Source: a virus. From it: 41,461 nucleotides of DNA. The stretch spans positions 1-41,461 of IMG/VR virus record IMGVR_UViG_3300022752_005328; one strand, written 5' to 3'. The notes below the pieces were generated by a model. It ran no database searches. It had not been told where the DNA came from and saw nothing but the letters and a program-made list of their open reading frames with translations. Positions 3,981 through 41,461 of the stretch are shown one piece after another; within the stretch, counting starts at the first letter, position 1, and the number at the start of each line of letters is the position of its first letter. The position numbers were made by a program, and so were the translations under genes.

Positions 3981-5009
3981 ATGGCAAAGGTTCTTGTAGG
4001 TTTGTCCGGTGGTGTTGACTCTGCTGTTGTTGCTGCGCTTCTAAAGCAACAAGGGCATGAAGTTTACGGTTACACTCTTAAGCTACTTGAAACCCTTGAC
4101 AGCGATGAAGGTGAAGGTTGCTGTACCTTTAAGGATATTCGTGATGCTCGTATGGTTTGCGACAAGATGGGTATTGAATATCTTGTAACAAACTGGAAGC
4201 AAGTCTTTAAGAAGAATGTAATTGATCGATATGTTGATGGTGCAAAGCAAGGCATTGCATATAATCCTTGTGTAACTTGTAATAGTACCATTAAGCTTCC
4301 AGTTCTTGCTGCTGTTGCAAACCATTTTAATTGTGAGTATATTGCTACAGGGCATTATGCTAGGGTTAGCAACGGACGAATCACAAGGGCAAAGAATCTA
4401 AAAAAGGATCAAAGCTATTTCCTATGGGAGACTCCATCTTCTGTTGTATCTCGACTTATGTTTCCCCTTGGTGAGTTTGATAGCAAGGATGATACAAGAG
4501 CTATTGCCCGTGAATTCGGGTTGCACGTTGCTGATAAAAAGGATAGTACCGATCTATGCTTTCTCGCTGGAGGAACAAAGAATGAGTTTTTGGAACGAAA
4601 CGGTGTGGTATCTAACGCTGGTAACATCATTGATGTTGATGGACAGGTGCTAGGCAAGCATGACGGCTACACAAAGTATGTAGCAGGACAACGTATTGGA
4701 GGTAGCTCCGAGCGTAGATACGTTCTTAATGTTATTCCTTCTAATGGTGATGTTGTGGTTGGAACAAGACAACAAGCAAACACAAACACTCTTAAGCTTG
4801 TTAATGCCAGAATCGATTTTAATGGCGATCTAACAAACGTTGCAGCAGTTACCCGTTACCATTCATCTCCTGTCACTGTTAAGGCTATTACGAGCGTTAA
4901 CGATGAAGTTAACGTCTCACTTAATGACTCAGTGTTTGGAGTAGCCAAGGGACAAAGCTGTGTGTTTTATCGTGGCGATGAAGTTGTAGGTGGAGGAATC
5001 ATTGCTTAA
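3981..5009 (+). CDS. mnmA: tRNA 2-thiouridylase (MnmA/TrmU)
   Basis: MnmA activates U34 of Lys, Glu and Gln tRNAs with ATP and inserts sulfur at C2 of the wobble uridine. All key elements are present: the PP-loop SGGVDS (residues 9-14), NPCVTCN with Cys100 in the place of E. coli Cys102, the GHYAR block near 125, and DSTDLCF with Cys193 in the place of Cys199. At 342 aa it is near the usual 350-380, and the C-terminal beta-barrel appears complete, ending FYRGDEVVGGGII, so it should be active. It follows the small lipoprotein by 11 nt. Its codons are AAG/GTT/GCT-biased. Phage-encoded MnmA is uncommon and may tune decoding of AAA/GAA/CAA, which are abundant in this genome. The cysteine desulfurase and sulfur relay would have to come from the host. 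Confidence 0.93.
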   Translation: MAKVLVGLSGGVDSAVVAALLKQQGHEVYGYTLKLLETLDSDEGEGCCTFKDIRDARMVCDKMGIEYLVTNWKQVFKKNVIDRYVDGAKQGIAYNPCVTCNSTIKLPVLAAVANHFNCEYIATGHYARVSNGRITRAKNLKKDQSYFLWETPSSVVSRLMFPLGEFDSKDDTRAIAREFGLHVADKKDSTDLCFLAGGTKNEFLERNGVVSNAGNIIDVDGQVLGKHDGYTKYVAGQRIGGSSERRYVLNVIPSNGDVVVGTRQQANTNTLKLVNARIDFNGDLTNVAAVTRYHSSPVTVKAITSVNDEVNVSLNDSVFGVAKGQSCVFYRGDEVVGGGIIA

Positions 5010-13348: not shown

Positions 13349-14289
13349 AGAATGTGCTAGTAACTGGGGGGCTTGGTTTTATTGGTAGTCACGTTGTAGA
13401 TTTACTACTAGAACAAGATTACAACGTAACGGCTGTAGACAACTTAGACACCGGGAAACAAGCCAATCTTCAACATTTGAAACCTTATGAAAATTCTCGG
13501 CTTAAAATTTACAAATTTGAGTTTGATGATTTTGGTATTTTATCAAACATAAGGGATGGTAAGTACGATTACGTTTTGCATCTTGCGGCAAAAGCGAGCG
13601 TTCCTTATTCGGTTGACAATCCTATGCTGTCAAACGACGTTAATGTGTCGAAAACTTTAGCATTGCTAGACGCTTGTAGGTCTGGTAAAGTCAAAAAGTT
13701 TGTGTTTTCTTCTTCGTCTGCTGTATACGGTGACTCTGATATGTTTCCTACAAAAGAATCGTGCAGCAAAAACCCATTGTCTCCGTATGCTTTACAGAAA
13801 AGCGTTATCGAAGATTATTGCAAGATGTTTTATAACCTTTATGGTGTAGAAAGCGTTTGTTTGCGATATTTCAATGTTTTTGGTCCAAGGCAAGCAGGTT
13901 CGGGACCATATGCTAATGTTATTTCTTCATGGTGCGAAAACGGTATCAAACACAAGAAGATTCGGTTGGATGGTAAAGGTGAATCGTCACGAGATTTTGT
14001 TTATGTGAAAGACGTTGCAAAAGCAAATTTGCTAGCAATGACTAGTCATATGAAACACGCATGTATTAATATCGGTGGTGGTAACTCTATTCCTATTAAA
14101 GATGTGCTTCTTACTTTTGAAGAATGTTTTGATGTACAAGTTACGAATGCACCAGCAAGACTAGGTGATCCACTTCGTACATTGGCTGATGTTAGTTTGG
14201 CAAAAACGTTGCTTGGATTCGAACCAACAAAAGTTACACCTGACTTGTTTCGTGAAACCTTTGTTTGGTACAAGGAGAACGTTAAATGA
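13345..14289 (+). CDS. NAD-dependent sugar epimerase/dehydratase (SDR)
   Basis: This is an extended SDR of the UDP-hexose/N-acetylhexosamine 4-epimerase type. It has the NAD-binding TGGLGFIGSH (residues 7-16), the VDNLDTG segment, the HLAA block, the SSSSAVYG strand and the catalytic pair Tyr148 / Lys152 in SPYALQK. RYFNVFGPRQ and SRDFVYVKDVAKA are the typical substrate-side motifs. 314 aa is the usual length. The ATG overlaps the nuclease stop (ATGA), and the next start overlaps its own stop, so it opens a chain of coupled sugar genes. Substrate (UDP-Glc, UDP-GlcNAc or another NDP-sugar) cannot be settled from motifs. Confidence 0.88.
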   Translation: MKNVLVTGGLGFIGSHVVDLLLEQDYNVTAVDNLDTGKQANLQHLKPYENSRLKIYKFEFDDFGILSNIRDGKYDYVLHLAAKASVPYSVDNPMLSNDVNVSKTLALLDACRSGKVKKFVFSSSSAVYGDSDMFPTKESCSKNPLSPYALQKSVIEDYCKMFYNLYGVESVCLRYFNVFGPRQAGSGPYANVISSWCENGIKHKKIRLDGKGESSRDFVYVKDVAKANLLAMTSHMKHACINIGGGNSIPIKDVLLTFEECFDVQVTNAPARLGDPLRTLADVSLAKTLLGFEPTKVTPDLFRETFVWYKENVK

Positions 14290-16289
14290 ACACAAAAATG
14301 AAAATCGTTGTTCCAGTTTATAATGCCCAAGAATGGATTAAAAAATGTTTGGAATCTATTGCAACACAACAACACAAGAACTTTGAATGTGTTGTTATCA
14401 ACGATGCGTCAAAAGACAATACAAAGGAAGCGATAAACAGCCTACAACTTGATGAACGATTTCATGTAATACACAACGAAGTCAATCAAGGTGCGTTGTA
14501 TAACATCGTTAACGGTTTTAAGTATCTTCAAGCAGAAAAAGAACCAGAAAGCGTATTGATGGCTATTGATGGTGATGATTGGTTGTTTAGTCCAACATCG
14601 TTAACAGTTATCAACAAGGTATATACCAAAATGCCTAGTTGTCTTTTGACATATGGCAGCTACAACGATTGGCCCACGGGAGCCAAAGGTATTTGTGAAG
14701 CATTTCCACAAGAAGTTATCAACGCTCGCTCTTATCGAGCTTATCCAAAGTTTGTTACTTCACATCTAAGAACCTTTAAAAGCAAGCTTTGGTATTCGCT
14801 ACAAGAACAAGATTTAATCGATCCAAGAACAAACAAGCATTACTCCGTTGCTTGGGATTTAGCGTTTATGATGCCCATGCTAGAAATGGCTGGGAAGCAT
14901 TTTGTGTTCATCGATCAGCCATTGTACTCATATAATCGTAACAACCCAATCAGTGATGGTTATATTCGTCAAAAACAACAATGGGAAACCGATCAATTTA
15001 TTCGTAAGCTTCCAAGAAAAGAAGTGATTGATTTTAATTCCAAGGTAACCGATGGGATTGATGCAAAACAGTTATTGACTCCTTACAGATTTGATGTGGC
15101 CGTAAAATATATGTACGCCAAATCGATTGTAGAGGGTTTTAAAACCGATTACTTCAAAGATGCGTACAAAGAGCATCTCAAGGTTTGGAACGGCTTTAAA
15201 GAGTATGACAACCCCAACAAAACAACCTTTGAAGCGTTTGACAACGAATTCAAATCAATCATTAAATCGATTGAAAACAAAGGTTTTGATGCAACAGTTT
15301 CCAAGGTACCTATTCAAGATTCAAAATATATTTTGAATGGAGCGCATCGTGTTGCCGCTGCAATGGCATTAAACAAACAAGTTGTATGCAAACAAGGTGT
15401 TGACGGTAATGATGGGCAGATGTATTGCGGTTGGCCTATGTTTCAAAAGCTTGGCTTGTCCCACGTTTATGCAGATCAAGCAGCTATAGAATATGCCAAG
15501 CTAAAACCAAACACTTTTATCGCTACTTTGTTTCCAGCGGCAAAAGGAAATGGACAACTAGCTGTTGATGTACTTAACAAGCATGGCAAGGTTGTTTATT
15601 ACAAAAGTGTCAAGTTAATCAAAAACGGTCCATTGAATCTAATGGCAGAGTTTTATGAAAACGAAGCATGGGCTGGCGGGCCACATAACAACTATGCAGG
15701 TTATCGAGAAAAGGCTAACTTGTGTTTTACATCAGATCATCCAACGGTGTTCTTTTTGGTTGAGTTCGACAGTTTGCAAAACTCTGTTGCGGCCAAACGT
15801 GAGATAAGAGAAGCATTTAACCTTGGCAACCACACCATTCATATCAACGATACACACGAACAAACCATTAGACTAGCTAACGTCGTGTTTAACAACAACA
15901 GCTTGCATCATTTGGTTTATGCCAAAAAGGTTTCGTTTCCAAAGTTCGATCAACTTCTTGCTAAGTTTAAGCAACTAGTTCCTAATGTAGACGACTATGC
16001 TGTTACTGTAAGCTCTGTGTTGTCTGCGTATGGTTTAAGAGAAGGTAAGGATTTAGATTACGTTACAAGAAGCAATGTGATTGTTAAAGATGATTTGATT
16101 GATTGCCATAATCAATATCTGGAAACGTTGTATGGTACAACCGCTGATGAAATTGTACTAAACCCTAGAAACTACTTTTATACCAAAGGTGTTAAGTTTG
16201 TATCGCTTGCCTTTATTCGTGATTTGAAAGCAAAACGAAACGAACCAAAAGACATAGAAGATATTAAACTGATAGATTCGTTAGCATGA
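14286..16289 (+). CDS. Multidomain GT2 glycosyltransferase with extra C-terminal domains
   Basis: Residues 1-220 are a GT2 (GT-A fold) transferase: IVVPVYNAQEWIKKCLESI, VVINDASKDNT and the metal-binding IDGDDW. After a linker, around residue 355, comes YILNGAHRVAAAMAL, a motif like the D/NG-x-HR-x-AA loop of ParB/sulfiredoxin-like domains. The last 180 residues contain VGNHT/IHIND-like and FNNNSLHHL segments and then SSVLSAYGLREGKDLDYVTR, which recalls a minimal nucleotidyltransferase-like fold with a closing KRNEPKDIEDIKLI helix. Such three-part proteins are unusual, and the latter two domain calls are by eye. It is coupled to both neighbours by ATGA overlaps. Confidence 0.75.
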   Translation: MNTKMKIVVPVYNAQEWIKKCLESIATQQHKNFECVVINDASKDNTKEAINSLQLDERFHVIHNEVNQGALYNIVNGFKYLQAEKEPESVLMAIDGDDWLFSPTSLTVINKVYTKMPSCLLTYGSYNDWPTGAKGICEAFPQEVINARSYRAYPKFVTSHLRTFKSKLWYSLQEQDLIDPRTNKHYSVAWDLAFMMPMLEMAGKHFVFIDQPLYSYNRNNPISDGYIRQKQQWETDQFIRKLPRKEVIDFNSKVTDGIDAKQLLTPYRFDVAVKYMYAKSIVEGFKTDYFKDAYKEHLKVWNGFKEYDNPNKTTFEAFDNEFKSIIKSIENKGFDATVSKVPIQDSKYILNGAHRVAAAMALNKQVVCKQGVDGNDGQMYCGWPMFQKLGLSHVYADQAAIEYAKLKPNTFIATLFPAAKGNGQLAVDVLNKHGKVVYYKSVKLIKNGPLNLMAEFYENEAWAGGPHNNYAGYREKANLCFTSDHPTVFFLVEFDSLQNSVAAKREIREAFNLGNHTIHINDTHEQTIRLANVVFNNNSLHHLVYAKKVSFPKFDQLLAKFKQLVPNVDDYAVTVSSVLSAYGLREGKDLDYVTRSNVIVKDDLIDCHNQYLETLYGTTADEIVLNPRNYFYTKGVKFVSLAFIRDLKAKRNEPKDIEDIKLIDSLA

Positions 16290-24209: not shown

Positions 24210-24628
24210 AAAAAGTTTATTCAAAAATAGAAAAAAATAAACTGCTGTTTGTGATGTATGATTTGAATAACGTTACGGACAGAGTTGATTTGGTTGATGA
24301 AAATGAGTTCTTGCAATGCGCTGTGATAAAAAAACCAAAGAACACCAAGTTTCGTCCACATAAGCACATATCAAAACCTATCAAGGTTTCTGAACAAATA
24401 GCGCAAGAATCTTGGTTTGTTTTCAAAGGTAAGATCAGAGTTTTTCATTATGATATTGATGATTCATTTATGGGAACGCATGATCTTTCAGAAGGCGAGA
24501 TACACATAACTTTAGAAGGTGGTCATAGTCTTGAATGCTTAGAAGATAATACGATCATCTGCGAGCATAAAAATGGGCCGTACTACGGTCAAAAATTGGA
24601 TAAAACATTCATTGAGGAAAACATATGA
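24206..24628 (+). CDS. Cupin of O-antigen/capsule-locus type, 140 aa
   Basis: The product has FRPHKHISKP, ESWFVFKGKIRVFHYDID, LSEGEIHITLEGGHSLECLED and the ending CEHKNGPYYGQKLDKTFI. I recall this arrangement (HKH, xGGHSxE, NGPYYGxxLD) from small cupins in LPS/capsule clusters (WbuC/WxcM-like in neighbourhood). His residues in HKH and GGHS fit a metal centre. A role in sugar isomerisation or acyl handling is plausible but not shown. It is coupled to both neighbours by ATGA overlaps. Confidence 0.75.
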   Translation: MKKVYSKIEKNKLLFVMYDLNNVTDRVDLVDENEFLQCAVIKKPKNTKFRPHKHISKPIKVSEQIAQESWFVFKGKIRVFHYDIDDSFMGTHDLSEGEIHITLEGGHSLECLEDNTIICEHKNGPYYGQKLDKTFIEENI

Positions 24629-25596
24629 GTAAAAAAGCATTTATCACTGGAATCAATGGTCAAGACGGAAGCTATCTAGCTGAATATCTTTTGTCTTTGG
24701 GTTATGAAGTTCATGGTATGGTTCGTAGAAATTCTATGGCCGAGAATCAAGATATTCGAATCGGTCATATTACTAAAAACATAGTAACCCACTATGGCGA
24801 CTTACTGGATGAAAGTTCTATTGACCGACTTTTGTTCGATCTTAAGCCAGATGAAATCTATAACATTGGAGCGCAAAGCCACGTTAAAATCAGCTTTGAA
24901 ATCCCACAATTTACCGTGAAAACTAATGCTCTTGGTGTTATGAATATGCTAGAGGCTTATCGTAGATTTTGTCCTAACGCAAAGTTTTATCAAGCTAGTT
25001 CATCAGAAATGTTTGGAAACAGCCAAGACTCAGATGGATTCCAAAGAGAAACAACACCAATGCATCCAGTAAGTCCATATGGTTGCTCTAAGTTGTTTGG
25101 ATATTCTATTGTTAGAAACTATCGCAAAGCTTATGGTTTGCACGCTGTTAACGGAATATTGTTTAACCACGAATCTCCACGTAGAGGCTCTAACTTTGTT
25201 ACCAACAAGGTGGTTAAAACAGCCGTACAAATCTACCGTGGAGTGACGGATAAACTTGAACTTGGCAATCTAGACTCATATCGTGATTGGGGTCACTCAA
25301 AAGATTATGTAAAAGCCATGCACAAAATCATCAACCATGAAACACCAGATGATTTTGTTGTTTCAACCGGTGAAACGCATTCAGTTAGAGAAATGGTTGA
25401 TTATGTTTTTCGTAGGCTTGATATGAATTATCAAGATTACGTTGTGCAAAATCCTGCGTTCATGCGTCCAGAAGAGCTTAAGTACCTTAAGGGAGACTCA
25501 ACAAAAGCAAGAACCGTGTTGGGTTGGAAACCAGAATATACGTTTGAAACATTGCTCGATGAAATGATTGAGTATTGGAAAGAAAAGATTAGATAA
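24625..25596 (+). CDS. gmd: GDP-mannose 4,6-dehydratase
   Basis: It converts GDP-mannose to GDP-4-keto-6-deoxymannose. It has the NADP-binding ITGINGQDGSYLAEYL (residues 7-22), HGMVRRNS, NIGAQSHVKISFE (typical of Gmd), SSSEMFG and the catalytic Tyr152/Lys156 in YGCSK. ILFNHESPRRGSNFVTNKV is the Gmd substrate block. 323 aa is slightly short for the family (about 340-370) but all motifs are there. The substrate GDP-mannose would come from the host or from a ManC activity. It is the last coupled member before a promoter at 25600. Confidence 0.93.
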   Translation: MSKKAFITGINGQDGSYLAEYLLSLGYEVHGMVRRNSMAENQDIRIGHITKNIVTHYGDLLDESSIDRLLFDLKPDEIYNIGAQSHVKISFEIPQFTVKTNALGVMNMLEAYRRFCPNAKFYQASSSEMFGNSQDSDGFQRETTPMHPVSPYGCSKLFGYSIVRNYRKAYGLHAVNGILFNHESPRRGSNFVTNKVVKTAVQIYRGVTDKLELGNLDSYRDWGHSKDYVKAMHKIINHETPDDFVVSTGETHSVREMVDYVFRRLDMNYQDYVVQNPAFMRPEELKYLKGDSTKARTVLGWKPEYTFETLLDEMIEYWKEKIR

Positions 25597-25599
25597 GTA

Positions 25600-25628
25600 A
25601 AAACATAACCTTGTGTTTGTGCTACGAT
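25600..25628 (+). promoter_or_regulatory. Extended -10 promoter candidate for the GT4 pair
   Basis: TACGAT (25623-25628) with TGC directly upstream. The -35 position (25600-25605) reads AAAACA and is poor, so the element would depend on the extended -10. SD AAGGAG and ATG 25655 follow. Confidence 0.35.
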
Positions 25629-25654
25629 ATCTGGTTACTAAGGAGAACCTTTAA

Positions 25655-26947
25655 ATGAGTTCAAATGACGTAGCCGTTGTTGTTCCACAACGCAAACACA
25701 AGATTTTGATGTTGAGTGACCATCCACTATGCACAAGTGGTGTTGGTGTTCAAGCAAGATTCCTTATTCAAGGCTTGTTGAATACAGGCAAGTATAGCTT
25801 TCGTTGTCTCGGTGGAGCAATCAAGCATCCAAACTATGACACAGTTATGCTTAATCCAGACTTTGTTATCAAACCTGTTGATGGTTTCGGAAACCCCGAA
25901 ATCATTCGCAACATCTTGATTAACGAACGACCTGACGCTGTGCTTCTTTTCACAGACCCAAGACAGTTTTTTTGGCTTTGGGATATCGAAGACGAAATTC
26001 ATCAAATCTGTCCAATAACCTATTGGCATGTATGGGACAATGACCCATATCCAGATTACAACGATGTATGGTACAAGTCTACAGACCTCATCAATTGCCT
26101 TTCATATAAAACATATGAAATGGTGAATTCAAAGTTCCCAGAACGTACAAACTACATTCCTCACGCTTTTCCAAAAGAAGTATATTTCCCTCTTCCAGAA
26201 CAAGCAAGAATAGAACTTCGCAAGAAGAACTTTGGAGAACGAGCTGATTGGTTTGTTGGCACATGGGTTAACCGTAATGCAACCCGTAAAATGCCAAACG
26301 ATGTTCTTAATGCTTGGCGGGTGTTTCTCGACCGTCTACAAGCTGAAGAAGGGCATCGCAAGGCTGTGCTAATCATGCACACAGACCCAAACGATGTTGA
26401 GGGTCCAAACCTTATCGCTGTCACAGAAAAGCTTGGTATTAATGAACACGTTATGTTTTCAACTCAAAAAGTTGATTTCAATGATATGAACGCTCTTTAT
26501 AACATCACAGACTTTACTGTTAACGTTGCAAAGGCCGAAGGATTTGGTTTAGCCACTCTGTCAGCCATGATGGCTGGTAAGCCTATTATCGCTCTTAAAA
26601 CAGGTGGATTAACTCGTCAAGTTGTAGATCACCGTGATGGGTCGGAGAATGGAGTGGCTATTGAACCAGCAGCACGAACCTTGGTTGGGTCACAAGCTGT
26701 TCCTTACATTTACGACGATCACGTTAACTATCTTGACGTTGCCGAAGCTTATTGGAAGGTTTATAAGATGACACCAGAGGAACGAAAAGCTTTGTCTGAA
26801 AAGAACATTGATTATTGCAACTTTGAGTTTTCATATGAAAATATGATTAAACAATGGGACGAAACGTTGGATAAATGCATTACCGGTTTTAAAACGAACA
26901 AACCAAAAAGCTGGACTTGTGAACAACTTCGTCCGTTTGGTAAATGA
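25655..26947 (+). CDS. GT4-family glycosyltransferase (first of pair)
   Basis: This is a GT-B fold protein of 430 aa. The N-terminal half has ILMLSDHPLCTSGVGVQARFLIQGL, and the donor half has VGTWVNRNATRKMPNDVLNAW, HVMFSTQKVDFNDMNALYN and the E-x7-E motif in KAEGFGLATLSAMMAGKPIIA (Glu at the KAEGFG position). The retaining GT4 mechanism uses a nucleotide sugar. SD AAGGAG is good. AAG/CTT-type codon bias returns here compared with the AAA-rich cassette. It is followed after 17 nt by a second GT4. They may build a chain with sugars made by the cassette. Confidence 0.88.
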   Translation: MSSNDVAVVVPQRKHKILMLSDHPLCTSGVGVQARFLIQGLLNTGKYSFRCLGGAIKHPNYDTVMLNPDFVIKPVDGFGNPEIIRNILINERPDAVLLFTDPRQFFWLWDIEDEIHQICPITYWHVWDNDPYPDYNDVWYKSTDLINCLSYKTYEMVNSKFPERTNYIPHAFPKEVYFPLPEQARIELRKKNFGERADWFVGTWVNRNATRKMPNDVLNAWRVFLDRLQAEEGHRKAVLIMHTDPNDVEGPNLIAVTEKLGINEHVMFSTQKVDFNDMNALYNITDFTVNVAKAEGFGLATLSAMMAGKPIIALKTGGLTRQVVDHRDGSENGVAIEPAARTLVGSQAVPYIYDDHVNYLDVAEAYWKVYKMTPEERKALSEKNIDYCNFEFSYENMIKQWDETLDKCITGFKTNKPKSWTCEQLRPFGK

Positions 26948-26964
26948 TAGGAAGACTATAAACA

Positions 26965-28149
26965 ATGAAATCTGTACTACTTAGAGCACCTCTTTTGGTT
27001 CATGCAGGCTACGGTGTTCACGCCCGTCAAATCGCTCGCTGGCTTTTTCGTGTGGCAACAGAAACACACCAACTAGACATTACAACTGAACCTCTTGGTT
27101 GGGGTAAAACTCATATGATTGTTGATACTGAAGCAGAAGATGGTCTTATTGGACAAATTCTTCAAGCAGCAGGAAACAAAAAGAACTTCTATGATGTAAC
27201 CATTCAACTTCAACTTCCAAATGAATGGAATCCTTTTCTTGGAACGTTTAACGTTGGGGTAACAGCAGGTGTAGAAACCGATAAGTGCAATCCAGCTTGG
27301 ATTGAATGCATTAATCGTATGGATATGATTATTGTTCCAAGCGAGTTCACAAAGCAAACTTTCCTAAACACAGGAGAAGTAACAGTTCCAATTATCGTTG
27401 TGCCAGAAAGCTTTCCAGATGGTTTGCTATCCGAAGCTATTAGTGTAGACCTTGGCTTATCAACCAAGTTTAACTTTCTTGTTGTTGGTCAACTCACTGG
27501 TAACAACACAGAAAATGATCGTAAAAACCTTCCTTATACAATGAAGTGGCTGGCTGACGCATTCGTAGATTGTCCTGACGTTGGTATCGTTGTTAAAACA
27601 AACTCTGGCGCACAAACACAACTCGACAAGCAAAACATTAGGAATATCTTTTCTAAGTTGGTTGGAGAAATTGTTGGACCAAAGAACAAAGGACCAAAGT
27701 TTTATCTACTTCATGGTCATATGACAGATGAAGAAATGCATGGACTTTATACACATCCAGACATCAAGGCTCTTGTAACTTTTACCCACGGCGAAGGATA
27801 TGGTTTACCTATTGTAGAAGCTGCTGCTTGTGATCTACCCATTATTGCAACAAATTGGAGCGGTCATTTAGAGTTCCTTAAGCATGGAAGATTTATTCCT
27901 GTAGACTATAATTTGATGACAATTCCTGCATCTAGAGTTGACAATCAAATTTTTATGAAGGATGTAAAGTGGGCTAATCCTGTTGAACTTGATGCCAAAC
28001 AACGATTAAAGAAGTTTTATTCTGGCTCACAGATTCCAAAGCAATGGGCAACCGAGCTTGGAACAAAAATCCGAGAACATTATTGTTTTGATGCTGTAGC
28101 TCGTATTTATTCAGAAGTGTTGAATGAGCATTTGAAAGAAGAACAATGA
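26965..28149 (+). CDS. GT4-family glycosyltransferase (second of pair)
   Basis: The 394-aa GT-B protein starts SVLLRAPLLVHAGYGVHARQIARWL (Gly-rich acceptor loop). It has MIIVPSEFTKQTF at the domain boundary, FLVVGQLTGNN at the donor domain, and the E-x7-E signature in HGEGYGLPIVEAAACDLPIIA followed by NWSGHLEFL. It resembles its neighbour in plan but not closely in sequence. Its stop overlaps the ATG of the membrane protein (ATGA), linking the sugar genes to the late-gene block. Confidence 0.9.
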   Translation: MKSVLLRAPLLVHAGYGVHARQIARWLFRVATETHQLDITTEPLGWGKTHMIVDTEAEDGLIGQILQAAGNKKNFYDVTIQLQLPNEWNPFLGTFNVGVTAGVETDKCNPAWIECINRMDMIIVPSEFTKQTFLNTGEVTVPIIVVPESFPDGLLSEAISVDLGLSTKFNFLVVGQLTGNNTENDRKNLPYTMKWLADAFVDCPDVGIVVKTNSGAQTQLDKQNIRNIFSKLVGEIVGPKNKGPKFYLLHGHMTDEEMHGLYTHPDIKALVTFTHGEGYGLPIVEAAACDLPIIATNWSGHLEFLKHGRFIPVDYNLMTIPASRVDNQIFMKDVKWANPVELDAKQRLKKFYSGSQIPKQWATELGTKIREHYCFDAVARIYSEVLNEHLKEEQ

Positions 28150-28469
28150 TAGGTTATTTTTTAGCGTTCTTACTTGCAATCGCTTTAGGTTTTGTAATTT
28201 ACCACGCCTTTAGATGGGCTAAAATCATTTTCATTTTAGAAGATGATCTTGCCGATGCGATTGAGATTCATGAAAGAACATTAGAAACATTGGAAGCTAT
28301 CGTTAAAACTCCTATGTTTTTTGACAATCCACAAACAAAAGCAGCGGTTGATGAAGCAATGGAAAATGTAAAAATGTGTCAAACCGCAACGCACAAGCTT
28401 ATTCAAAACTTTACACAACGAAGCAAGCAACGCTATATTCGGCTTGTAGATGAAGACGAGGGCGAATGA
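28146..28469 (+). CDS. Single-pass membrane protein with long helical tail, 107 aa
   Basis: Residues 3-22 (GYFLAFLLAIALGFVIYHAF) form one clear transmembrane segment near the N-terminus, with the basic RWAK after it. The remaining 80 residues are helical and acidic at the end (VDEDEGE), with coiled-coil character. There is no signal cleavage site. A membrane-tethered factor, or a baseplate/tail-associated membrane protein, is possible. It is coupled by ATGA overlaps to the GT4 gene upstream and the sigma factor downstream. Confidence 0.7.
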   Translation: MIGYFLAFLLAIALGFVIYHAFRWAKIIFILEDDLADAIEIHERTLETLEAIVKTPMFFDNPQTKAAVDEAMENVKMCQTATHKLIQNFTQRSKQRYIRLVDEDEGE

Positions 28470-29203
28470 TTCCAACAGGTAAAAAGCTAATCAAACGCAA
28501 GCCAAAAGGCGGGGCAGCTCCACAAGAGTTTTATTTCAATGCTAACACTCAACAAGCTATTGTTGATTACAAAGCTGAAACAATACCTTCCAAACGCAAC
28601 GACATATACGTTCGTGAAATACTTCCAGCTTTTAACAAGCTTGTGGAAAACTTGATTAACGTTTATGGTTTTCAAATTCAATATGAAAGCAAAGCAGATT
28701 TGCAAAATGAATGCATCGAGTTTTTGTATGGTGTAATTACAAAGTTTGATGCAAGTAAAGGCACCAAAGCATTCTCATACTTCAATGTTGTTGCAAAACA
28801 TTGGTTAATCATTAAAAGCAAACAAAGTGTTCGTAATGTTCATGTGTTTACTTCTATTGATGATACTGAAGCCTTGTCTCAACATGACTTGGAAACAATA
28901 GAAAATCATAGTGTTTCACCGTCTCCAGAAGAAAGTTTGGTAGAAGAATGCGATCACCAAAAAATCAAAACAATATTGGAGTTTATTTCTTCAAAAGCCA
29001 TAACTGATAACGAACTTGAATGTCTTAAGGGAATTAACTTGTTGTTTAGCAACGTTAACGAACTTGATTTTCTTAACAAACGTGCTGTAATGCTTTATTT
29101 AAGAGAAATAACCAACCTTTCGCCCAAGCAACTTAGTGTTGTGCTTTCTCTTATGAAACGTCATTACAAAGCAGCCAAAGAAGAATATGAACGAATTGAT
29201 TGA
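28466..29203 (+). CDS. RNA polymerase sigma factor for late transcription (gp55-like)
   Basis: The core around residues 75-125 reads LQNECIEFLYGVITKFDASK, then GTKAFSYFNVVAKHWLIIKSK, matching sigma region 2 (compare the KFDPSRGxxFxTYA pattern). It is followed by an acidic linker (SPSPEESLVEE) and a C-terminal helical part (LTDNELECLKGINLL..., LSPKQLSVVLSLMKRHYKAA) that looks like a region-4-like unit. In T4-type phages gp55 directs host core polymerase to late promoters of the form TATAAATA. Position at the head of the baseplate block fits. 245 aa is longer than T4 gp55 (185 aa). Confidence 0.8.
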   Translation: MIPTGKKLIKRKPKGGAAPQEFYFNANTQQAIVDYKAETIPSKRNDIYVREILPAFNKLVENLINVYGFQIQYESKADLQNECIEFLYGVITKFDASKGTKAFSYFNVVAKHWLIIKSKQSVRNVHVFTSIDDTEALSQHDLETIENHSVSPSPEESLVEECDHQKIKTILEFISSKAITDNELECLKGINLLFSNVNELDFLNKRAVMLYLREITNLSPKQLSVVLSLMKRHYKAAKEEYERID

Positions 29204-34595: not shown

Positions 34596-34619
34596 TTTGT
34601 AAAACGTTACCTCCTTACT
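34595..34619 (+). repeat. Imperfect direct repeat, copy A (upstream of endonuclease 1)
   Basis: GTTTGTAAAAC...CCTCCTTACT overlaps the gp6-like stop codon and matches the copy at 35671-35695 at 21 of 25 positions. The pair brackets the endonuclease gene and contains the anti-SD sequence CCTCC. Confidence 0.6.
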
Positions 34620-34640
34620 ATATAGTAATAGGAGAGGTAA
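34607..34640 (+). promoter_or_regulatory. Hairpin burying the endonuclease-1 Shine-Dalgarno
   Basis: TTACCT (34607-34612) pairs with AGGTAA (34635-34640). Inside, TTACTA (34615-34620) pairs with TAGTAA (34623-34628). The C residues 34613-34614 can reach the G residues of AGGAG (34630-34634). The whole GGAGAGG ribosome site is thus in the structure, 7 nt before ATG 34647. The loop includes TATATAGTA, a loose late-promoter-like string. Confidence 0.6.
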
Positions 34641-34646
34641 AGTTTT

Positions 34647-35678
34647 ATGGAATACAAGTACGAAGGTCATTCTCTTAAGTCTGGAATTTATAAGATCACA
34701 AATAAACTAAATGGAAGAATCTATATTGGTTCTGCGAAACTTTTCAAAGTTCGCTGGAATCAGCATTCATCTTCTCTTCGTAATCAAAAGCATCAAAACA
34801 AGTTTCTTCAAGCAGATTTTAACAAATGTGGTGAAGATGCATTTCTATTTGAAGTTATTGAAGTAACTGAAGACAAATCAAAAGAAGAGCGTTTAATGAT
34901 TGAAGAAGGTTATATTAACCAATATTATGATAAAGGAAACAACTGCTACAATCTTTGTGACAGGGCGATTTCAAGGGAGGGGAATCCTAGCAAAGATCCA
35001 GAAGCAACAAGGAATAAGCTTAAAGGAAAGACTCCTTGGAACAAGGGCAAACAAACTGGTATCGAACCGTGGAACAAAGGCAAGACTAATGTATTTGCAG
35101 AAGAAACTTTAGAAAAGATTAGGCAAGCGAGAGCGGAGCAAGTTTTTTCTGAAGAATCGAATAGAAAAAGGGCTGATAGTTTGCGTGGCAGAACTTTTTC
35201 TGACGAAGCAAAAGCGAAAATAGGTGCAGCAAACAGTGTTCTTATGAAGGAGAAGTGGGAAGATCCAGAATATCGTGAATCTCAAATAGAAAAACTAAGG
35301 TCGGTAGAACGTGTATATACTGATGAAATGCGAGCTAGAGCGAGTGAAGCACGCAAAGGAAAGACTCACAGTGTAGAAACGATTGAAAAACTTCAAGAAA
35401 CAAGGAAGAAACAGTGGGAAGACCCAGAGTTTAGAGAGAAAGTTGTAAATTCGATGAATAGCCCAGAAGCTATCGAAAACTATAGCAAAGCATCTTCAGC
35501 AAGATGGCAGGATGAAGAGTATCGCAAACGCATGATTGAATCGATACGAAATTCGATTGACAAAACGCAGAGAGCCGAAACATCAAAAAAACGGTGGGAA
35601 GATCCCGAGTATAAAGCAAAAGTTTCTGCTAAAATAAAAGCTTCATGGGAAAGACGCAAGGCACAAAAGAGTTCGTAA
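34647..35678 (+). CDS. GIY-YIG homing endonuclease 1 with NUMOD3-type repeats
   Basis: A free-standing homing endonuclease of 343 aa. The catalytic domain has GIY at 13-15, YIG at 26-28, Arg36 in FKVRW and a Glu near residue 88, followed by NCYNL. The DNA-binding part has several NUMOD3-like repeats (GKTPWNKGK, then EPWNKGK and GRTFSDEAKAKIG, GKTHSVETIEKL) and repeated KKxWEDPEYR units. It sits between two structural genes that would otherwise be neighbours, bracketed by an imperfect 25-nt direct repeat. Its ribosome site is hidden in a hairpin. A paralogue with the same spacing of GIY, YIG and Arg36 begins at 40826. Confidence 0.92.
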   Translation: MEYKYEGHSLKSGIYKITNKLNGRIYIGSAKLFKVRWNQHSSSLRNQKHQNKFLQADFNKCGEDAFLFEVIEVTEDKSKEERLMIEEGYINQYYDKGNNCYNLCDRAISREGNPSKDPEATRNKLKGKTPWNKGKQTGIEPWNKGKTNVFAEETLEKIRQARAEQVFSEESNRKRADSLRGRTFSDEAKAKIGAANSVLMKEKWEDPEYRESQIEKLRSVERVYTDEMRARASEARKGKTHSVETIEKLQETRKKQWEDPEFREKVVNSMNSPEAIENYSKASSARWQDEEYRKRMIESIRNSIDKTQRAETSKKRWEDPEYKAKVSAKIKASWERRKAQKSS

Positions 35679-35695
35679 AACCTGCCCTCCTTACT
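35671..35695 (+). repeat. Imperfect direct repeat, copy B (downstream of endonuclease 1)
   Basis: GTTCGTAAAAC...CCTCCTTACT overlaps the endonuclease stop codon. It mirrors copy A at 34595-34619 with four mismatches, as if a duplicated intergenic segment flanked the insertion. The remaining 47 nt to the next ATG contain a TTTATATAAAG string (35704-35714), a weak late-promoter candidate. Confidence 0.6.
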
Positions 35696-35742
35696 TCTCT
35701 AGATTTATATAAAGCAGCTATTTACATCATAGTGGAAAAACT

Positions 35743-37332
35743 ATGTATCGTATTCTTAAAGCTGACAAAGATAGCTACGTTACCAACAAAATAATTAATA
35801 GCACACGCCCAACTACTTCAGCTTCTACGGATGCAAACGTAGGCCAAGCTGGTACCATTGATTTGTTCAAGCTATACAACGCTACCACCGTGCCAAGCGG
35901 TACTTCTGGTGTAGAACTATCTCGTGGCCTTATTCATTTTGATTTAAATGAACTTCGTGCTCTTACTGGTTCTATTCTTAACATCAATGATTCAAGCTTT
36001 AAATGCTATGTGTCGATAAAAAATGTGTATGGTGGGCAAACTGTTCCATCAAATTATACGCTTATTCTATATCCGCTAGCAAAAGATTGGGAAGAAGGTC
36101 GTGGTAACGACGTTATTGGTTATCGTGACTTAGATGCTGTCAACTGGTTTACTGCTTCAATTAATCCAACAGTTGTAACATGGACAAGTGGTGGAATAGG
36201 TTATGGATCAGATGTAACAGATGTTAATGCAGACTATTATCTTTCTTCTTCTCTTATTGGTAATGTTCCACTAGGCTTCTCTCAAAGCTTTGCCAGAGGT
36301 GATGAAGACTTGCTAATCGATGTAACTACAGCAGTTTCTGCTACACTTAATGGTGACATACCTGATTATGGATTTAGATTAAGTTTTTCTGGGTCACAAG
36401 AAACTGATACAGTTACAAGATTTGTTAAACGTTTTTCTTCAAGACAAAGTAGAAACACTAATATTCATCCAGCACTTGTTGTAAAATACAACGATAGCTT
36501 TTTCGACAATCAAGCAAGTTCGTTTTTTGATTACAACAACAAAATAGGCTACTATTATTCGCCATTTGGTGTTGAATCAAACTTTATGTCTGGCAGCACT
36601 GAAGTATCTGGTTCTGGTAGCATTATTCTAGAACTAATTGCCAGCAAAAGCGTATATGTTACCGCAACAACATATAGTTTCAGTCATTCAATGTCGATAA
36701 ACTATACGTCAGCAAGTTGGAATTATTTTTCTCAAAGCTTTACAGGTTCTCAAATAAGTTTTGGTGGAATATTTCAAACAGGAAGTTATTATGCTGATGT
36801 GTTTATTCCCTTGAATACAACAGGATTATCTGGGGTTCTTAAATCAGACAAAAGCGTTGAGTTCGAAAGTGTTTGGAAGTCGCCGGATAATACCGTTATA
36901 TTCGCTACAGGGTCATCTATAACCTTCAATCAGCTTCGTGGACGTAACACCATAGTCAACACTCAAAACTACGGTATTAACATCACCAACCTAGAAGAAA
37001 ACTACCCAAACAATCAATCAACAACCTTGCAAGTTTTTGTGTACGATTTTGATCCAACTCTTAAAAGTTTTTATTTGCCTTATAAGGCTCAACCAAAAGT
37101 GTTTCCAAAGATGTATTGGAGATTGATTGATCCATTTACAAAAGAAGTGTTGATTCCTTTTGATGATGTTGGAACAAAGCTTTCAGCGGACGGTGGTGGT
37201 ATGTATTTTACTTTGTATATGCAAGACTTACCAATCAACAAACCTTTGGAAATTCAATTTTTGATCAAAGAAAACAACGAAACATATTTGATTGAAAATC
37301 AAGGGTTTAAGTTTAAGGTTATCGCATCATGA
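35743..37332 (+). CDS. Structural protein with DNRLRE-like domain
   Basis: The 529-aa product has an N-terminal half like a DNRLRE/CBM96-type beta-sandwich: DANVGQAGTI near residue 30, ELSRGLIHFDLNEL near 60, YVSIKNV and ILYPLAKDWEEGRGND near 115, then VTWTSGGIGYG. Such modules are found in surface and carbohydrate-binding proteins. The rest is Ser/Thr/Tyr-rich beta sequence (SGSTEVSGSGSI, TGSYYADVFIP). Location after the gp6-like gene suggests a baseplate or short-fibre component. It is coupled to the next gene (ATGA). Confidence 0.65.
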   Translation: MYRILKADKDSYVTNKIINSTRPTTSASTDANVGQAGTIDLFKLYNATTVPSGTSGVELSRGLIHFDLNELRALTGSILNINDSSFKCYVSIKNVYGGQTVPSNYTLILYPLAKDWEEGRGNDVIGYRDLDAVNWFTASINPTVVTWTSGGIGYGSDVTDVNADYYLSSSLIGNVPLGFSQSFARGDEDLLIDVTTAVSATLNGDIPDYGFRLSFSGSQETDTVTRFVKRFSSRQSRNTNIHPALVVKYNDSFFDNQASSFFDYNNKIGYYYSPFGVESNFMSGSTEVSGSGSIILELIASKSVYVTATTYSFSHSMSINYTSASWNYFSQSFTGSQISFGGIFQTGSYYADVFIPLNTTGLSGVLKSDKSVEFESVWKSPDNTVIFATGSSITFNQLRGRNTIVNTQNYGINITNLEENYPNNQSTTLQVFVYDFDPTLKSFYLPYKAQPKVFPKMYWRLIDPFTKEVLIPFDDVGTKLSADGGGMYFTLYMQDLPINKPLEIQFLIKENNETYLIENQGFKFKVIAS

Positions 37333-40300
37333 CAACATTACCAACATCAATTCAAAGATTGGTTGCTTTACGTCCCGGTGTTTTCAGTCCATCATTGGTT
37401 CGTGGAGTTATTGATCCAGATGGAGGATTGTCAACCTTTTCTTCAGAAAACGGAGCGTTCTTAACTCAAGCACCTGTTGGAGAAACAGGATCGTTTCGTT
37501 ATGATCCAATAGGTTCTGGTATTAAATCAACTCAACAACTAAATGTTGATTGGAGTTTGTTTGAAAACCATGTGTTTTTCAACAGTGCTCAAGTAAAAGT
37601 TAACGCAGCTTTTAACAAAATCTTTGATCGTTATCCTTTTGACGGAACTCAAAAAGAAACCGAACTTTTCTACGATCAAATGACAGGTTATGAAAACTAT
37701 GTGTTTACAAATCTTCCAAAGCACAAAGGTTATCTTTTCTTTTCTGGCAGTAACATTGGCGATACACCAGTAAGAGGTACGTGGATTACCGTAAAAGATA
37801 GCGCAGGCACATCGTTTCCTTTTCTTACAAAGAATCCAAACGGTGCTAGCAGGCTTGATCCAACATCGGGTTCAGTCTCGTTTCAGTTTCAAATCTATGC
37901 TGCATCAGGTTCCAACTCAAACCAAATGGTTTTCCAAAAACTCGAAACTTTAAGCGCAACCGAACAACATGGTTTTGGTTGCTTTCTTTCGAGTTCTACG
38001 GCCCCTACAGCGAGCTTAACATTCTTTGTTGCCTCTGGGTCAACAAACGTTATGTCTGCCACTGTTGAGCTTGTTAAAGAGTCTTGGACGCCTATTACAT
38101 TTACTTGGAACAGAACAAGTGGTATCAATCAATTGTTTGGTTATGTAAGTGGTTCATTGGTTGCAACAAGCAGTCAAGTTACAATTCGTAACTTGAATTT
38201 TCCAACAGCCAGTTTGCTTATTGGGACAGGAAGTAACATTCTTGCACCATTGTTTACACCAGCAACAACATTCTCTGGAGCTATAGACGAGTTTCGTTAT
38301 TTCAAGCGTGTTGTTTCTACCGATGAAATGATATCGTATCAAAGCAGCAGCATATATGCTGAACCAGAACTTGCTTTGTACTTTAAGTTTAATGAGCCAA
38401 GTGGATCAACTACAAACCTTGTTTTAGATTCTTCTGGTAAAGGTATGCATGGCACATTAAATGGCTATGCGTTAAACATCTTAAAAGTAAGAGATATCAA
38501 CACAGGTTCTTATATGGGCGAAAGCCCAATGATTTATGAAGACATAAGAAAATGTCCGATATTGTTTCCAGATCAACCAGAAGTTGTAACATATCGTGAG
38601 AACCTTATTTCTGATGGAGCTTCATACGATTCTTACAACCCAAACATCATAACAAAGCTTGTACCAAAGCAATATTTCACATATGGACAAGAACAAGCTG
38701 CGTTGGAAACCGAAGAAGGTGAAATCAATGAGTTGCAATATGGTTCTGAACCAAACACAGCAGCTCTTGGCAGCACACAAACTTTGTTAAGTTTGCTTTA
38801 TCTTTGGGCAGGATTCTTTGACGAAATCAAATTGTTTCTTGATGCGTTTTCAACATTAAGACACGTTGATTATGACCAAAATGACACAGCCCCAGATGCG
38901 TTTTTAAAACAACTTGCTGATTTTTACGGCTTGGATCTTCCACCTTTGTTTATTGGTTCAGATGTTAATCAGTTCATTAACGGAACCAACGTTACACCAA
39001 CCATTGTTAACAGCGAATATACCCTTCAATATCTACAAAATCAAATCTGGCGTAGGATATTGATTAATGCCAACGACATTCTTAAAAGCAAAGGTACAAT
39101 ACACAGCATCAAAGCTTTTTTAAGAGCGGTTGGTATTGATGGAGACAACATTTTTAGATTCAAAGAATATGGTGGACCAACACAACGTACACTTGATTCT
39201 TTGCGTGAGTCAAGAAATGAAATCGGAACAACGTTAAACTTTAAAGCTGGTGGTTATGTAAAAACACCATATCTTTCTGGAAGCAGAGTTGAACCGGGAT
39301 ATCCAACACCTGTTGGATCATTTGTTGTCGATCCTAATACTGGACATAACATAGGAACAACAAACGTTAACGACGGTTTGTTTACAAGTGGTTCATGGAC
39401 ATACGAAGGTATTTACAACTATTCTGGTACACCTAGTACCAGTTCTGTTCAAAGCCTTGTACGCATTATGTCTACAGGTTCTAGCAACGTAGAAAATGTG
39501 TTAGCTAACTTGTATGCAACAACTGGGTCAGGTGTTACGTTGTACGTCAACCCAAACTCAACTGTTGGAGCAACTGCTTTAACAATGAGCATAACAACAC
39601 CCGACATTATGAACGGTCAAGCTTGGAACATAAGCTTTGGTAGAGTTCGTGGTGATTCTATTAACCAAGTATCTTCGTCTTACTTTTTGCGTGTTGGTAG
39701 AAACAACCTTGGAAGTATTGTAGAAGAGTACACAACAAGTTCTTATTACGATGATAACTTTGGGTCTAACTCTGCTAACAATATGTGGCAAGTTATCAAT
39801 GGAACATATAATGGTTCTGGTTCTTTTCTAGCGTTTGGTAGCGGTAGCACAACAATTGCCACAACCAATCGATTTGTTAACGAACATCCGTTACAAACGT
39901 TTGATGGTAAGATAACGCAAATGCGTTGGTGGAGCGAAGGATTAACTCTTGACGAATGGAGAGAACACGTAAGAGACTATAAGAGCCTTGGTGTACAAGA
40001 TCCGTTGGTTAACTTCAACTTTGAAAACTTTAGAAGCGGATCATTCCAAAAACTTCGTGGTGATTGGAACACAGATCAAGTTGAGTTGATGACAGACTCA
40101 ACAGGTTCAATTCAAATCTTTGACTTTTCTCAGCATTATCTACATGCTAGCGGTACTGGATTCCCTGTAACGTCTTCTGTTATCATCCCAGAACGATTTT
40201 ACTATTCGTTTATTTCTCCAAACTTTGATGAAGCTGTAACAGATCAAAAGGTTCGTGTAAGAAGCTATCAAAGCTTGGATTATGTCGATCAAGACGTTGG

Positions 40301-40784
40301 TTCGTATTCTCAAGCAGCTCCTATATACGAGATTCAACAAGAACAAATACCCGAAGACAATGCTAAGTTCAGCATTGATTTTTCTATCGTTGACTCACTA
40401 AACCAAGACATGATTGGAATGTTTTCTTCGTTGGATATATTCAACAACATTCTTGGAGCCCCAGATATGATGTTTTCTCCAGATTACCCAGATCTAGAAT
40501 CATTGCGAGACATATACTTTAACCGACTAACAACTCAGTTAAACATTCGTGGCTTCTTTGAGTTTTATCAATGGTTTAATACCAACATGGGTAAGTTTAT
40601 TGAACAACTACTGCCAAGAAAAACAAAGTTTAAAGGCATCAACTATGTGATTCAATCTCACATGCTTGAACGTCCAAAACTTGAATACCACTTCGAAGAT
40701 ATCTACGTGGGCGTCAATAACAGAAATCGTCAAAAAGAAGTGCTTTTACTGCAACTTTTCACCGGTACGTTAAAAAAATATTAG
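37329..40784 (+). CDS. Large baseplate/fibre-like protein with LamG-type domains, 1151 aa
   Basis: Two concanavalin/LamG-like modules are suggested by FSGAIDEFRYFKRVVSTDEM (about 315-335) and FDGKITQMRWWSEGLTLDEW (about 857-877), each the usual closing strand and helix of that fold. FKFNEPSGSTTNLVLDSSGK (about 355) starts another such unit. Around 585, ILKSKGTIHSIKAFLRAVGI resembles the segment of P2 gpI-like tail proteins. The C-terminus has a helix-rich anchor (EQLLPRKTKFKGINYVI). The protein could be the gp7-position wedge/arm, carrying glycan-binding modules. Exact assignment is uncertain. It is flanked by two homing endonuclease genes. Confidence 0.7.
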   Translation: MTTLPTSIQRLVALRPGVFSPSLVRGVIDPDGGLSTFSSENGAFLTQAPVGETGSFRYDPIGSGIKSTQQLNVDWSLFENHVFFNSAQVKVNAAFNKIFDRYPFDGTQKETELFYDQMTGYENYVFTNLPKHKGYLFFSGSNIGDTPVRGTWITVKDSAGTSFPFLTKNPNGASRLDPTSGSVSFQFQIYAASGSNSNQMVFQKLETLSATEQHGFGCFLSSSTAPTASLTFFVASGSTNVMSATVELVKESWTPITFTWNRTSGINQLFGYVSGSLVATSSQVTIRNLNFPTASLLIGTGSNILAPLFTPATTFSGAIDEFRYFKRVVSTDEMISYQSSSIYAEPELALYFKFNEPSGSTTNLVLDSSGKGMHGTLNGYALNILKVRDINTGSYMGESPMIYEDIRKCPILFPDQPEVVTYRENLISDGASYDSYNPNIITKLVPKQYFTYGQEQAALETEEGEINELQYGSEPNTAALGSTQTLLSLLYLWAGFFDEIKLFLDAFSTLRHVDYDQNDTAPDAFLKQLADFYGLDLPPLFIGSDVNQFINGTNVTPTIVNSEYTLQYLQNQIWRRILINANDILKSKGTIHSIKAFLRAVGIDGDNIFRFKEYGGPTQRTLDSLRESRNEIGTTLNFKAGGYVKTPYLSGSRVEPGYPTPVGSFVVDPNTGHNIGTTNVNDGLFTSGSWTYEGIYNYSGTPSTSSVQSLVRIMSTGSSNVENVLANLYATTGSGVTLYVNPNSTVGATALTMSITTPDIMNGQAWNISFGRVRGDSINQVSSSYFLRVGRNNLGSIVEEYTTSSYYDDNFGSNSANNMWQVINGTYNGSGSFLAFGSGSTTIATTNRFVNEHPLQTFDGKITQMRWWSEGLTLDEWREHVRDYKSLGVQDPLVNFNFENFRSGSFQKLRGDWNTDQVELMTDSTGSIQIFDFSQHYLHASGTGFPVTSSVIIPERFYYSFISPNFDEAVTDQKVRVRSYQSLDYVDQDVGSYSQAAPIYEIQQEQIPEDNAKFSIDFSIVDSLNQDMIGMFSSLDIFNNILGAPDMMFSPDYPDLESLRDIYFNRLTTQLNIRGFFEFYQWFNTNMGKFIEQLLPRKTKFKGINYVIQSHMLERPKLEYHFEDIYVGVNNRNRQKEVLLLQLFTGTLKKY

Positions 40785-40787
40785 CAA

Positions 40788-40823
40788 AAACCTCCCCCAC
40801 GATATACCTATATTTGGGAGTTT
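40788..40823 (+). promoter_or_regulatory. Hairpin burying the endonuclease-2 Shine-Dalgarno
   Basis: AAACCTCCC (40788-40796) pairs with GGGAGTTT (40816-40823) with one bulged C. ATATA (40802-40806) pairs with TATAT (40809-40813) inside. GGGAG is the SD, 5 nt before ATG 40826, and lies wholly in the stem, as in the endonuclease-1 leader. Confidence 0.6.
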
Positions 40824-40825
40824 AT

Positions 40826-41461
40826 ATGATTTTTTTGTATGAAGGGAAGAGTAAATCAAGCGGCATCTACCATATCCATAACAAACATACTAATCGGTAT
40901 TATATCGGGCAGTCAAAAGAGTTCAAAGAACGTTGGAAAAATCATTCTTGGAGCTTGTTACAGCAAAAACAACAAAACAAATATTTTCAGTCCGATTTTA
41001 ATCTGTGTTTTTCAGAGCTTGGACATACCGATTTCCTAGAATTTAAGATTATTGAACTACTTCCTGATTCTAAAAAGGAAGACCGAAACAAACGAGAAGA
41101 TTGGTGGATATCAGAATATAAGCGGCAAGGTAAACAACTATATAACTTCGTAACGAACAACTGTTCGACCGAACATGTCCATTCACATGACCCAGAAACC
41201 ACAAAACGAAAATTGTCTGATGCCGCTAAAAAAAGATGGCAAAAGCCGGAATACCGTGACAAAGTTTTGGAGGTATTAAAAAATCGTCCAGCGGAAGGTT
41301 ATAGACATACCGATGAGGCTAAAGAACGTATAAAAAAAGCTATGTCAACACCAGAAAACAAAAAAAGATTATCTGAGTTGTGCCAAACAAAAAAACCACA
41401 CACAAAAACTCATGATGTAAGATTGGTTTCGCCAGATGGTACAATTTATGGCCCTATAACA
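40826..41461 (+). CDS. GIY-YIG homing endonuclease 2, 3'-truncated by window end
   Basis: The frame is open from ATG 40826 to the last base (212 codons, no stop). It has GIY at 13-15, YIG at 26-28 and Arg36 in FKERWKNH, at exactly the positions seen in endonuclease 1. QNKYFQSDFN and a Glu-rich helix (EDWWISEYK) follow, then KKRWQKPEYRDKV and GYRHTDEAKERIKKAM, NUMOD-like repeats as in the first copy. The visible end, VRLVSPDGTIYGPI, looks like the start of another DNA-binding module. It is a paralogue of the 34647 gene, inserted after the 1151-aa structural gene. Confidence 0.88.
   Translation, partial: MIFLYEGKSKSSGIYHIHNKHTNRYYIGQSKEFKERWKNHSWSLLQQKQQNKYFQSDFNLCFSELGHTDFLEFKIIELLPDSKKEDRNKREDWWISEYKRQGKQLYNFVTNNCSTEHVHSHDPETTKRKLSDAAKKRWQKPEYRDKVLEVLKNRPAEGYRHTDEAKERIKKAMSTPENKKRLSELCQTKKPHTKTHDVRLVSPDGTIYGPIT

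Follow-up and report, generated by a model that had tools for sequence, protein, structure and literature searches.

Hairpins that lock the ribosome binding site of a phage endonuclease gene have been described for a handful of T4-type phage endonucleases. According to the sections of two papers that deal with them (PMC2988022, PMC3014915), the design is experimentally established for I-TevI and for Aeh1 mobE, and implicated for segB, and the transcripts that carry these three genes also code for early and middle products. I-TevI, from the td intron of T4, is a GIY-YIG enzyme whose Shine-Dalgarno (SD) sequence lies in a stable hairpin, and a promoter motif gives rise to short transcripts without the 5' arm (PMC2988022, in the part on its expression). 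As far as the account in PMC3014915 goes, mobE and T4 segB are free-standing endonuclease genes with RNA structure over the ribosome binding site, and the T4 lysozyme gene e has an inhibitory structure in its long transcripts and late promoters near the 5' strand of that structure.

Here we analyse a gene, gene 1, in a 41,461-nt stretch of viral DNA (the window). It resembles I-TevI in encoding a GIY-YIG protein, in the predicted burial of its SD and in a promoter motif from which RNAs lacking the 5' arm could start. In contrast to I-TevI, it is free-standing between structural genes, is known from sequence alone, has CTATATA instead of TATAAATA, and uses as left arm a repeat that is found at other junctions. 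Gene 1 shares its free-standing position and the structure over its ribosome binding site with mobE and segB. However, mobE is an HNH gene of a ribonucleotide reductase gene region whereas the unit of gene 1 consists of structural genes, and the direct repeats at the boundaries of gene 1 are absent from the description of mobE and segB in the relevant part of PMC3014915. Gene e, whose inhibitory structure resembles the one predicted for gene 1, is a phage gene proper, whereas gene 1 is a mobile element. A lock of the I-TevI/segB/mobE type is supported for gene 1 by its sequence, and the hairpin recurs in the family to which the gene belongs, in large uncultured T4-like phages. The T4-type 'mobile regulatory cassettes' (PeSL), reportedly described by Arbiol et al. 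in 2010, are said to be short mobile elements of a promoter and a stem-loop at gene junctions, and to carry early promoters. Gene 1 is likened to them by this general description, and differs in that its repeat bounds an endonuclease gene.

Results

In the genome of an uncultured T4-like phage, two structural genes are separated by gene 1, a free-standing GIY-YIG cassette (Table 1). The end of the window is a block of structural genes which holds two GIY-YIG endonuclease genes, both encoding the catalytic domain, and the neighbours of gene 1 are baseplate, head-tail and other structural genes.

Table 1. Features of the two endonuclease loci and the candidate sigma factor gene, in window coordinates.
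Feature	Position	Strand	Description and evidence
gp55-like late sigma factor that may read CTATATA	28466-29203	+	phrog_234 in 17/18 homologues; sigma region 2 fold
5' boundary repeat TTTGTAAAACGTTACCTCCTTA	34597-34617	+	its CCTCC part forms the blocking left arm; supported by the fold and by further copies, 3' of the gene and at other junctions
CTATATA, promoter-like motif	34618-34624	+	apical part of hairpin, 29 nt before gene 1 start; kept in 15/16 main leaders
Right arm with SD AGGAGAGG (34630-34637) and stretch to AUG	34630-34646	+	sequence; opening energy; barrier gone without left arm
Gene 1	34647-35678	+	free-standing GIY-YIG homing endonuclease, 343 aa, NUMOD3 motif; PF01541 2e-10, PF07460, phrog_314; ATG at 34647
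3' boundary repeat GTAAAACCTGCCCTCCTTACT	35675-35695	+	overlaps gene 1 stop codon; 13/13 match to repeat, shuffle P 0.001
CTATTTA, promoter-like motif	35718-35724	+	25 nt before downstream gene (ATG 35743)
Repeat-like left arm CAAAAACCTCCCCCA	40785-40799	+	11/13 match to repeat, shuffle P 0.05; in L038 without the gene
GGGAG, SD of gene 2	40816-40820	+	weak 5-bp helix with 40792-40796; no better than chance
Gene 2, GIY-YIG endonuclease	40826-41461	+	PF01541 6.6e-7; runs off window end, 212 aa visible

Relatives of gene 1 were found at 31 viral loci, and a profile search added more; all of them were metagenomic contigs. No member of the family was found in cellular genomes, and isolated phages gave no DNA match and only protein matches below 60% identity. 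Three related genomes encode a gp23-type capsid. When the same junction was compared across related genomes, the endonuclease gene was present in some and absent from others at J1, J2, J3, J4 and J8, as befits a mobile gene; at the gene 1 junction L045, L059 and L044 do not carry it.

The start of gene 1, but not that of gene 2, is predicted to be locked

The segment 34597-34652 folded at -17.5 kcal/mol (z -3.2; 2 of 200 shuffles equal or better), with the left arm pairing to AGGAGAGG and the pairing continuing to the AUG of gene 1. Within the blocking arm, ACCTCCTTA (34609-34617) has the sequence of the anti-SD at the 16S rRNA 3' end, so that the arm mimics the SD-binding strand of the ribosome. 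Opening positions -17 to +3 cost 17.1 kcal/mol, which is the 98.8th percentile of 332 control genes (median 5.9 kcal/mol) drawn from the window and three related genomes, with start codons picked by a simple script, and none of 200 left-arm shuffles reached this cost. With the 5' end of the RNA at -26 or later the barrier fell from 15-17 to 5.1 kcal/mol, and similar drops followed 5' truncation past the left arm in L002, L006, L010, L013 and L101. In the structure predicted for read-through RNA, gene 1 thus has its SD sequestered like the hairpin-regulated phage endonucleases. The unpaired probability of the best SD string was noisy, placed gene 1 at no better than the joint 12th percentile, and was replaced by the opening energy of -17 to +3 with controls.

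The original prediction held that both endonuclease genes have their SD in a hairpin complete enough to block initiation, and that two independent occurrences point to selection. For gene 1 these values bear the hairpin and the block out. For gene 2 a CUCCC/GGGAG helix (40792-40796 with 40816-40820) does exist, but at chance level: its fold reached -7.1 kcal/mol (z -1.1 to -1.4), 26 of 200 shuffles were equal or better, and the opening cost of 7.1 kcal/mol lies at the 61st percentile of the controls. A helix of at least 5 bp on the SD occurs in about 10% of ordinary genes. The predicted TATA-rich strings are present in both loops, with CTATATT at 40808-40814 in gene 2. Independence has to be given up: the two proteins are homologous (46% identity across some 130 aa, beginning at residue 1), and each left arm is similar to the repeat AAAACCTsCCC.

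The gene 2 hairpin is probably a functionless chance helix formed from a repeat remnant, as its z-score and percentile, the frequency of such helices and the presence of its left arm in L038 without the gene suggest. On the other hand, gene 2 is a homologue of gene 1 with a similar layout of repeat-like arm, TATA string and SD, and by analogy it may work in the same way, although its own leader gives no significant evidence. No relatives of gene 2 were found in viral_contigs.

The leader is conserved among relatives of gene 1

The leader of gene 1 was conserved in about 20 relatives, and nearly all close relatives have in common AAAACsTkmCCTCnnTACTATATACTAATAGGAGAGGTAACGTTTT-ATGGAATAC. The median opening cost was 15.3 kcal/mol in 21 family leaders as against 5.9 in the controls (Mann-Whitney p 2e-11, gene 2 included), a comparison that overstates independence because the leaders are related. 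With gene 2 left out, 14 of 20 leaders lay above the 95th percentile of the controls; the remaining ones (L096, L099, L103, L008, L014 and L011) fell between the 63rd and 95th percentiles, with L008, L011, L014 and L103 at only the 63rd-91st.

Column-wise covariation was absent from 16 aligned leaders (paired cells 75.7% observed, 75.7% in shuffles), and the pairing of the main branch is therefore inseparable from plain sequence conservation, part of which may merely reflect conservation of the repeat. In L101 and L102, whose proteins are 52-54% identical, another stem, CCATATACTTATCTA/TAGGTAGGTATATGG, buries both SD and AUG at a predicted 25-26.5 kcal/mol. It does not use the boundary repeat, and CTATATA again stands between left arm and SD. 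A diverged branch would thus do the same job with a second, different stem, and nothing else speaks as strongly for selection acting on the lock itself.

The blocking arm is a repeat that also occurs without the endonuclease gene

The blocking arm is the repeat AAAACsTkmCCTC, which stands on both sides of the endonuclease gene in 7 of 14 complete relatives, the downstream copy lying within about 25 nt of the stop codon (13/13 match with variants allowed; shuffle P ≤0.002 each). The repeat was also found alone at gene junctions free of the endonuclease. That the arm which covers the SD is a repeat flanking the gene and standing by itself at endonuclease-free junctions is new here.

Orthologous junctions occurred in up to three states, i.e. 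with the gene, with the repeat alone, or with neither. The 620/529-aa junction reads repeat-gene-repeat in the window and in L002, and has neither in L045, L059 and L044. At the MSTFN/MARLF junction the gene is present in G005 and a lone repeat in G008 and G004, and at the gene 2 junction the gene is present in the window, a lone repeat in L038, and neither in L034 and L059. Recombination between repeats would remove or install the endonuclease gene, and the lone repeats would then be scars or targets.

Remnants of such genes were seen as well. Decayed endonuclease starts (CTATATATTTCTTAGAGAGGTACTGTTTATGGAATATA) in L067 at 18439 (G005 238439) and in L016 at 3856 consist of a promoter-like motif and an SD without the left arm, followed by a broken frame. 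On the minus strand of L039 near 3209, two repeats enclose a short stretch that resembles the C-terminus of an endonuclease, and a terminator-like hairpin comes next; this looks like an internally deleted cassette. L051 (G004) has another GIY-YIG-like ORF (MEHGKLNWYF..., 1117-2016) next to the MARLF gene but on the other strand, and the MARLF gene seems to be split or duplicated at this locus.

Could the inverted repeat then be a DNA feature of the mobile cassette, a boundary for recombination or insertion, with the covered SD as a by-product that has no regulatory role? The distribution of the repeat fits this explanation, as do the lack of covariation in the leaders and the fact that many relatives have, as right arm, an almost perfect inversion of the repeat. 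We nevertheless consider it unlikely. L101 and L102 keep SD and AUG buried by a stem other than the repeat, and single repeats before native genes without an endonuclease leave the SDs uncovered (opening 0.9-4.9 kcal/mol). Since native starts behind lone repeats are open, it is only in the endonuclease leader that the repeat meets a complementary SD region. Tentatively, the boundary repeat might do two jobs, as a DNA recombination or docking unit at many junctions and as the RNA arm that locks the endonuclease start. If so, on read-through RNA a cassette would be locked from the moment it landed at a junction with a repeat, its expression would depend on its own promoter alone, and a selfish gene could move among many junctions within essential structural operons and yet avoid over-expression there.

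A promoter-like motif and a gp55-like sigma factor

The CTATATA of gene 1 lies between the 5' arm and the SD, spaced as before other genes, and is a candidate late promoter. In three related genomes and the window, with the endonuclease family excluded, CTATWTA (CTATATA/CTATTTA) showed an enrichment of about 6-fold at 20-39 nt before starts, and its reverse complement one of 2.2-fold. An EM motif search returned only a weak CTWTWTAT-like motif. The capsid gene leader carries no CTATATA in the three related genomes, and for this reason we speak of a putative promoter. The loop region of gene 1 contains a sigma-70-like match as well; matches of this kind are as frequent as chance predicts.

A possible reader of the motif, a 245-aa protein, is encoded in the window. 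Its homologues matched phrog_234 with a best value of 3.3e-7, and its structural model superposed on sigma region 2 with Z about 9 and an rmsd of 2.4-2.6 Å over about 90 residues (residues 26-127). By profile and predicted fold the product is a member of the gp55 late sigma family of T4. Searching with the T4 gp55 sequence on its own gave no match, but the profile search did find the candidate; solved structures searched by sequence with the candidate gave chance matches only. A phrog_12791 match in G008 was discarded as not credible, since it spans a stop. The candidate gene lies near baseplate genes, and several helices are predicted outside region 2.

In gene-free relatives the SD of the gene downstream of gene 1 overlaps the upstream stop codon, and in the window CTATTTA precedes the start of that gene, a placement consistent with a cassette that supplies a promoter to the downstream gene.

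The late promoter of I-TevI is overlaid by an operator that resembles a homing site and is bound by I-TevI, as stated in the part of PMC2988022 that concerns it, and by analogy the conserved repeat and TATA region could be an operator through which the endonuclease represses itself, with the hairpin secondary. Conservation of the loop CTATATACTAATA and the repeats at empty junctions, as possible targets, agree with this. Such an operator leaves the alternative stem of L101 and L102 and the high opening cost unexplained, however, and we hold it to be improbable. More improbable still is that the upstream structural gene has its transcription terminator or insulator in the hairpin: the palindrome does end in UUUU right behind the upstream stop codon, but a scan for intrinsic terminators found none at the hairpin, only four U precede the AUG, and the stems of L101 and L102 have no U tract.

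Proposed regulation of gene 1

With a probability of roughly 0.6, we favour a lock formed by the repeat arm on read-through RNA and its release through short RNAs from an internal gp55-type promoter. When transcription of the upstream structural gene continues into gene 1, the 5' boundary repeat (AAAACGTTACCTCC) in the resulting RNA would pair with the SD of gene 1 up to the start codon, and the endonuclease would remain largely untranslated. Near the top of the hairpin, CTATATA would direct the start of short RNAs close to 34630; these would be devoid of the left arm, so that the ribosome site would be open and the endonuclease translated. What the computations show is the cassette, a stable lock conserved in the family, the motif with its spacing, the sigma-like gene and a repeat at either edge; from these we infer that the lock represses, that the sigma factor uses CTATATA as a promoter, and where the short RNAs begin. 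Counting against this, an RNA start near 34630 would place the SD at the extreme 5' end.

An I-TevI-like lock with a promoter inside it had been predicted for both genes. Fold, family conservation, motif and the gp55-like gene argue for it in gene 1; for gene 2 it lacks support. Doubtful, too, is the idea that the lock serves to hold off translation of early transcripts, although the SD lock as such stands for gene 1. Baseplate and other structural genes are late in T4. As the neighbours of gene 1 are structural, and the lock of the family sits at structural-gene junctions, it would act mainly on late read-through RNA. Limiting over-translation from such RNA is more likely its main role than preventing early translation, and a block on early RNA may add to it.

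Other genes of the window

The window also encodes an MnmA-like tRNA 2-thiouridylase (3981-5009; PF03054, 2e-62), and no tRNA gene was found in it. Glycosyltransferases and a nucleotide-sugar epimerase are encoded at 14286-16289 and 24625-28149.
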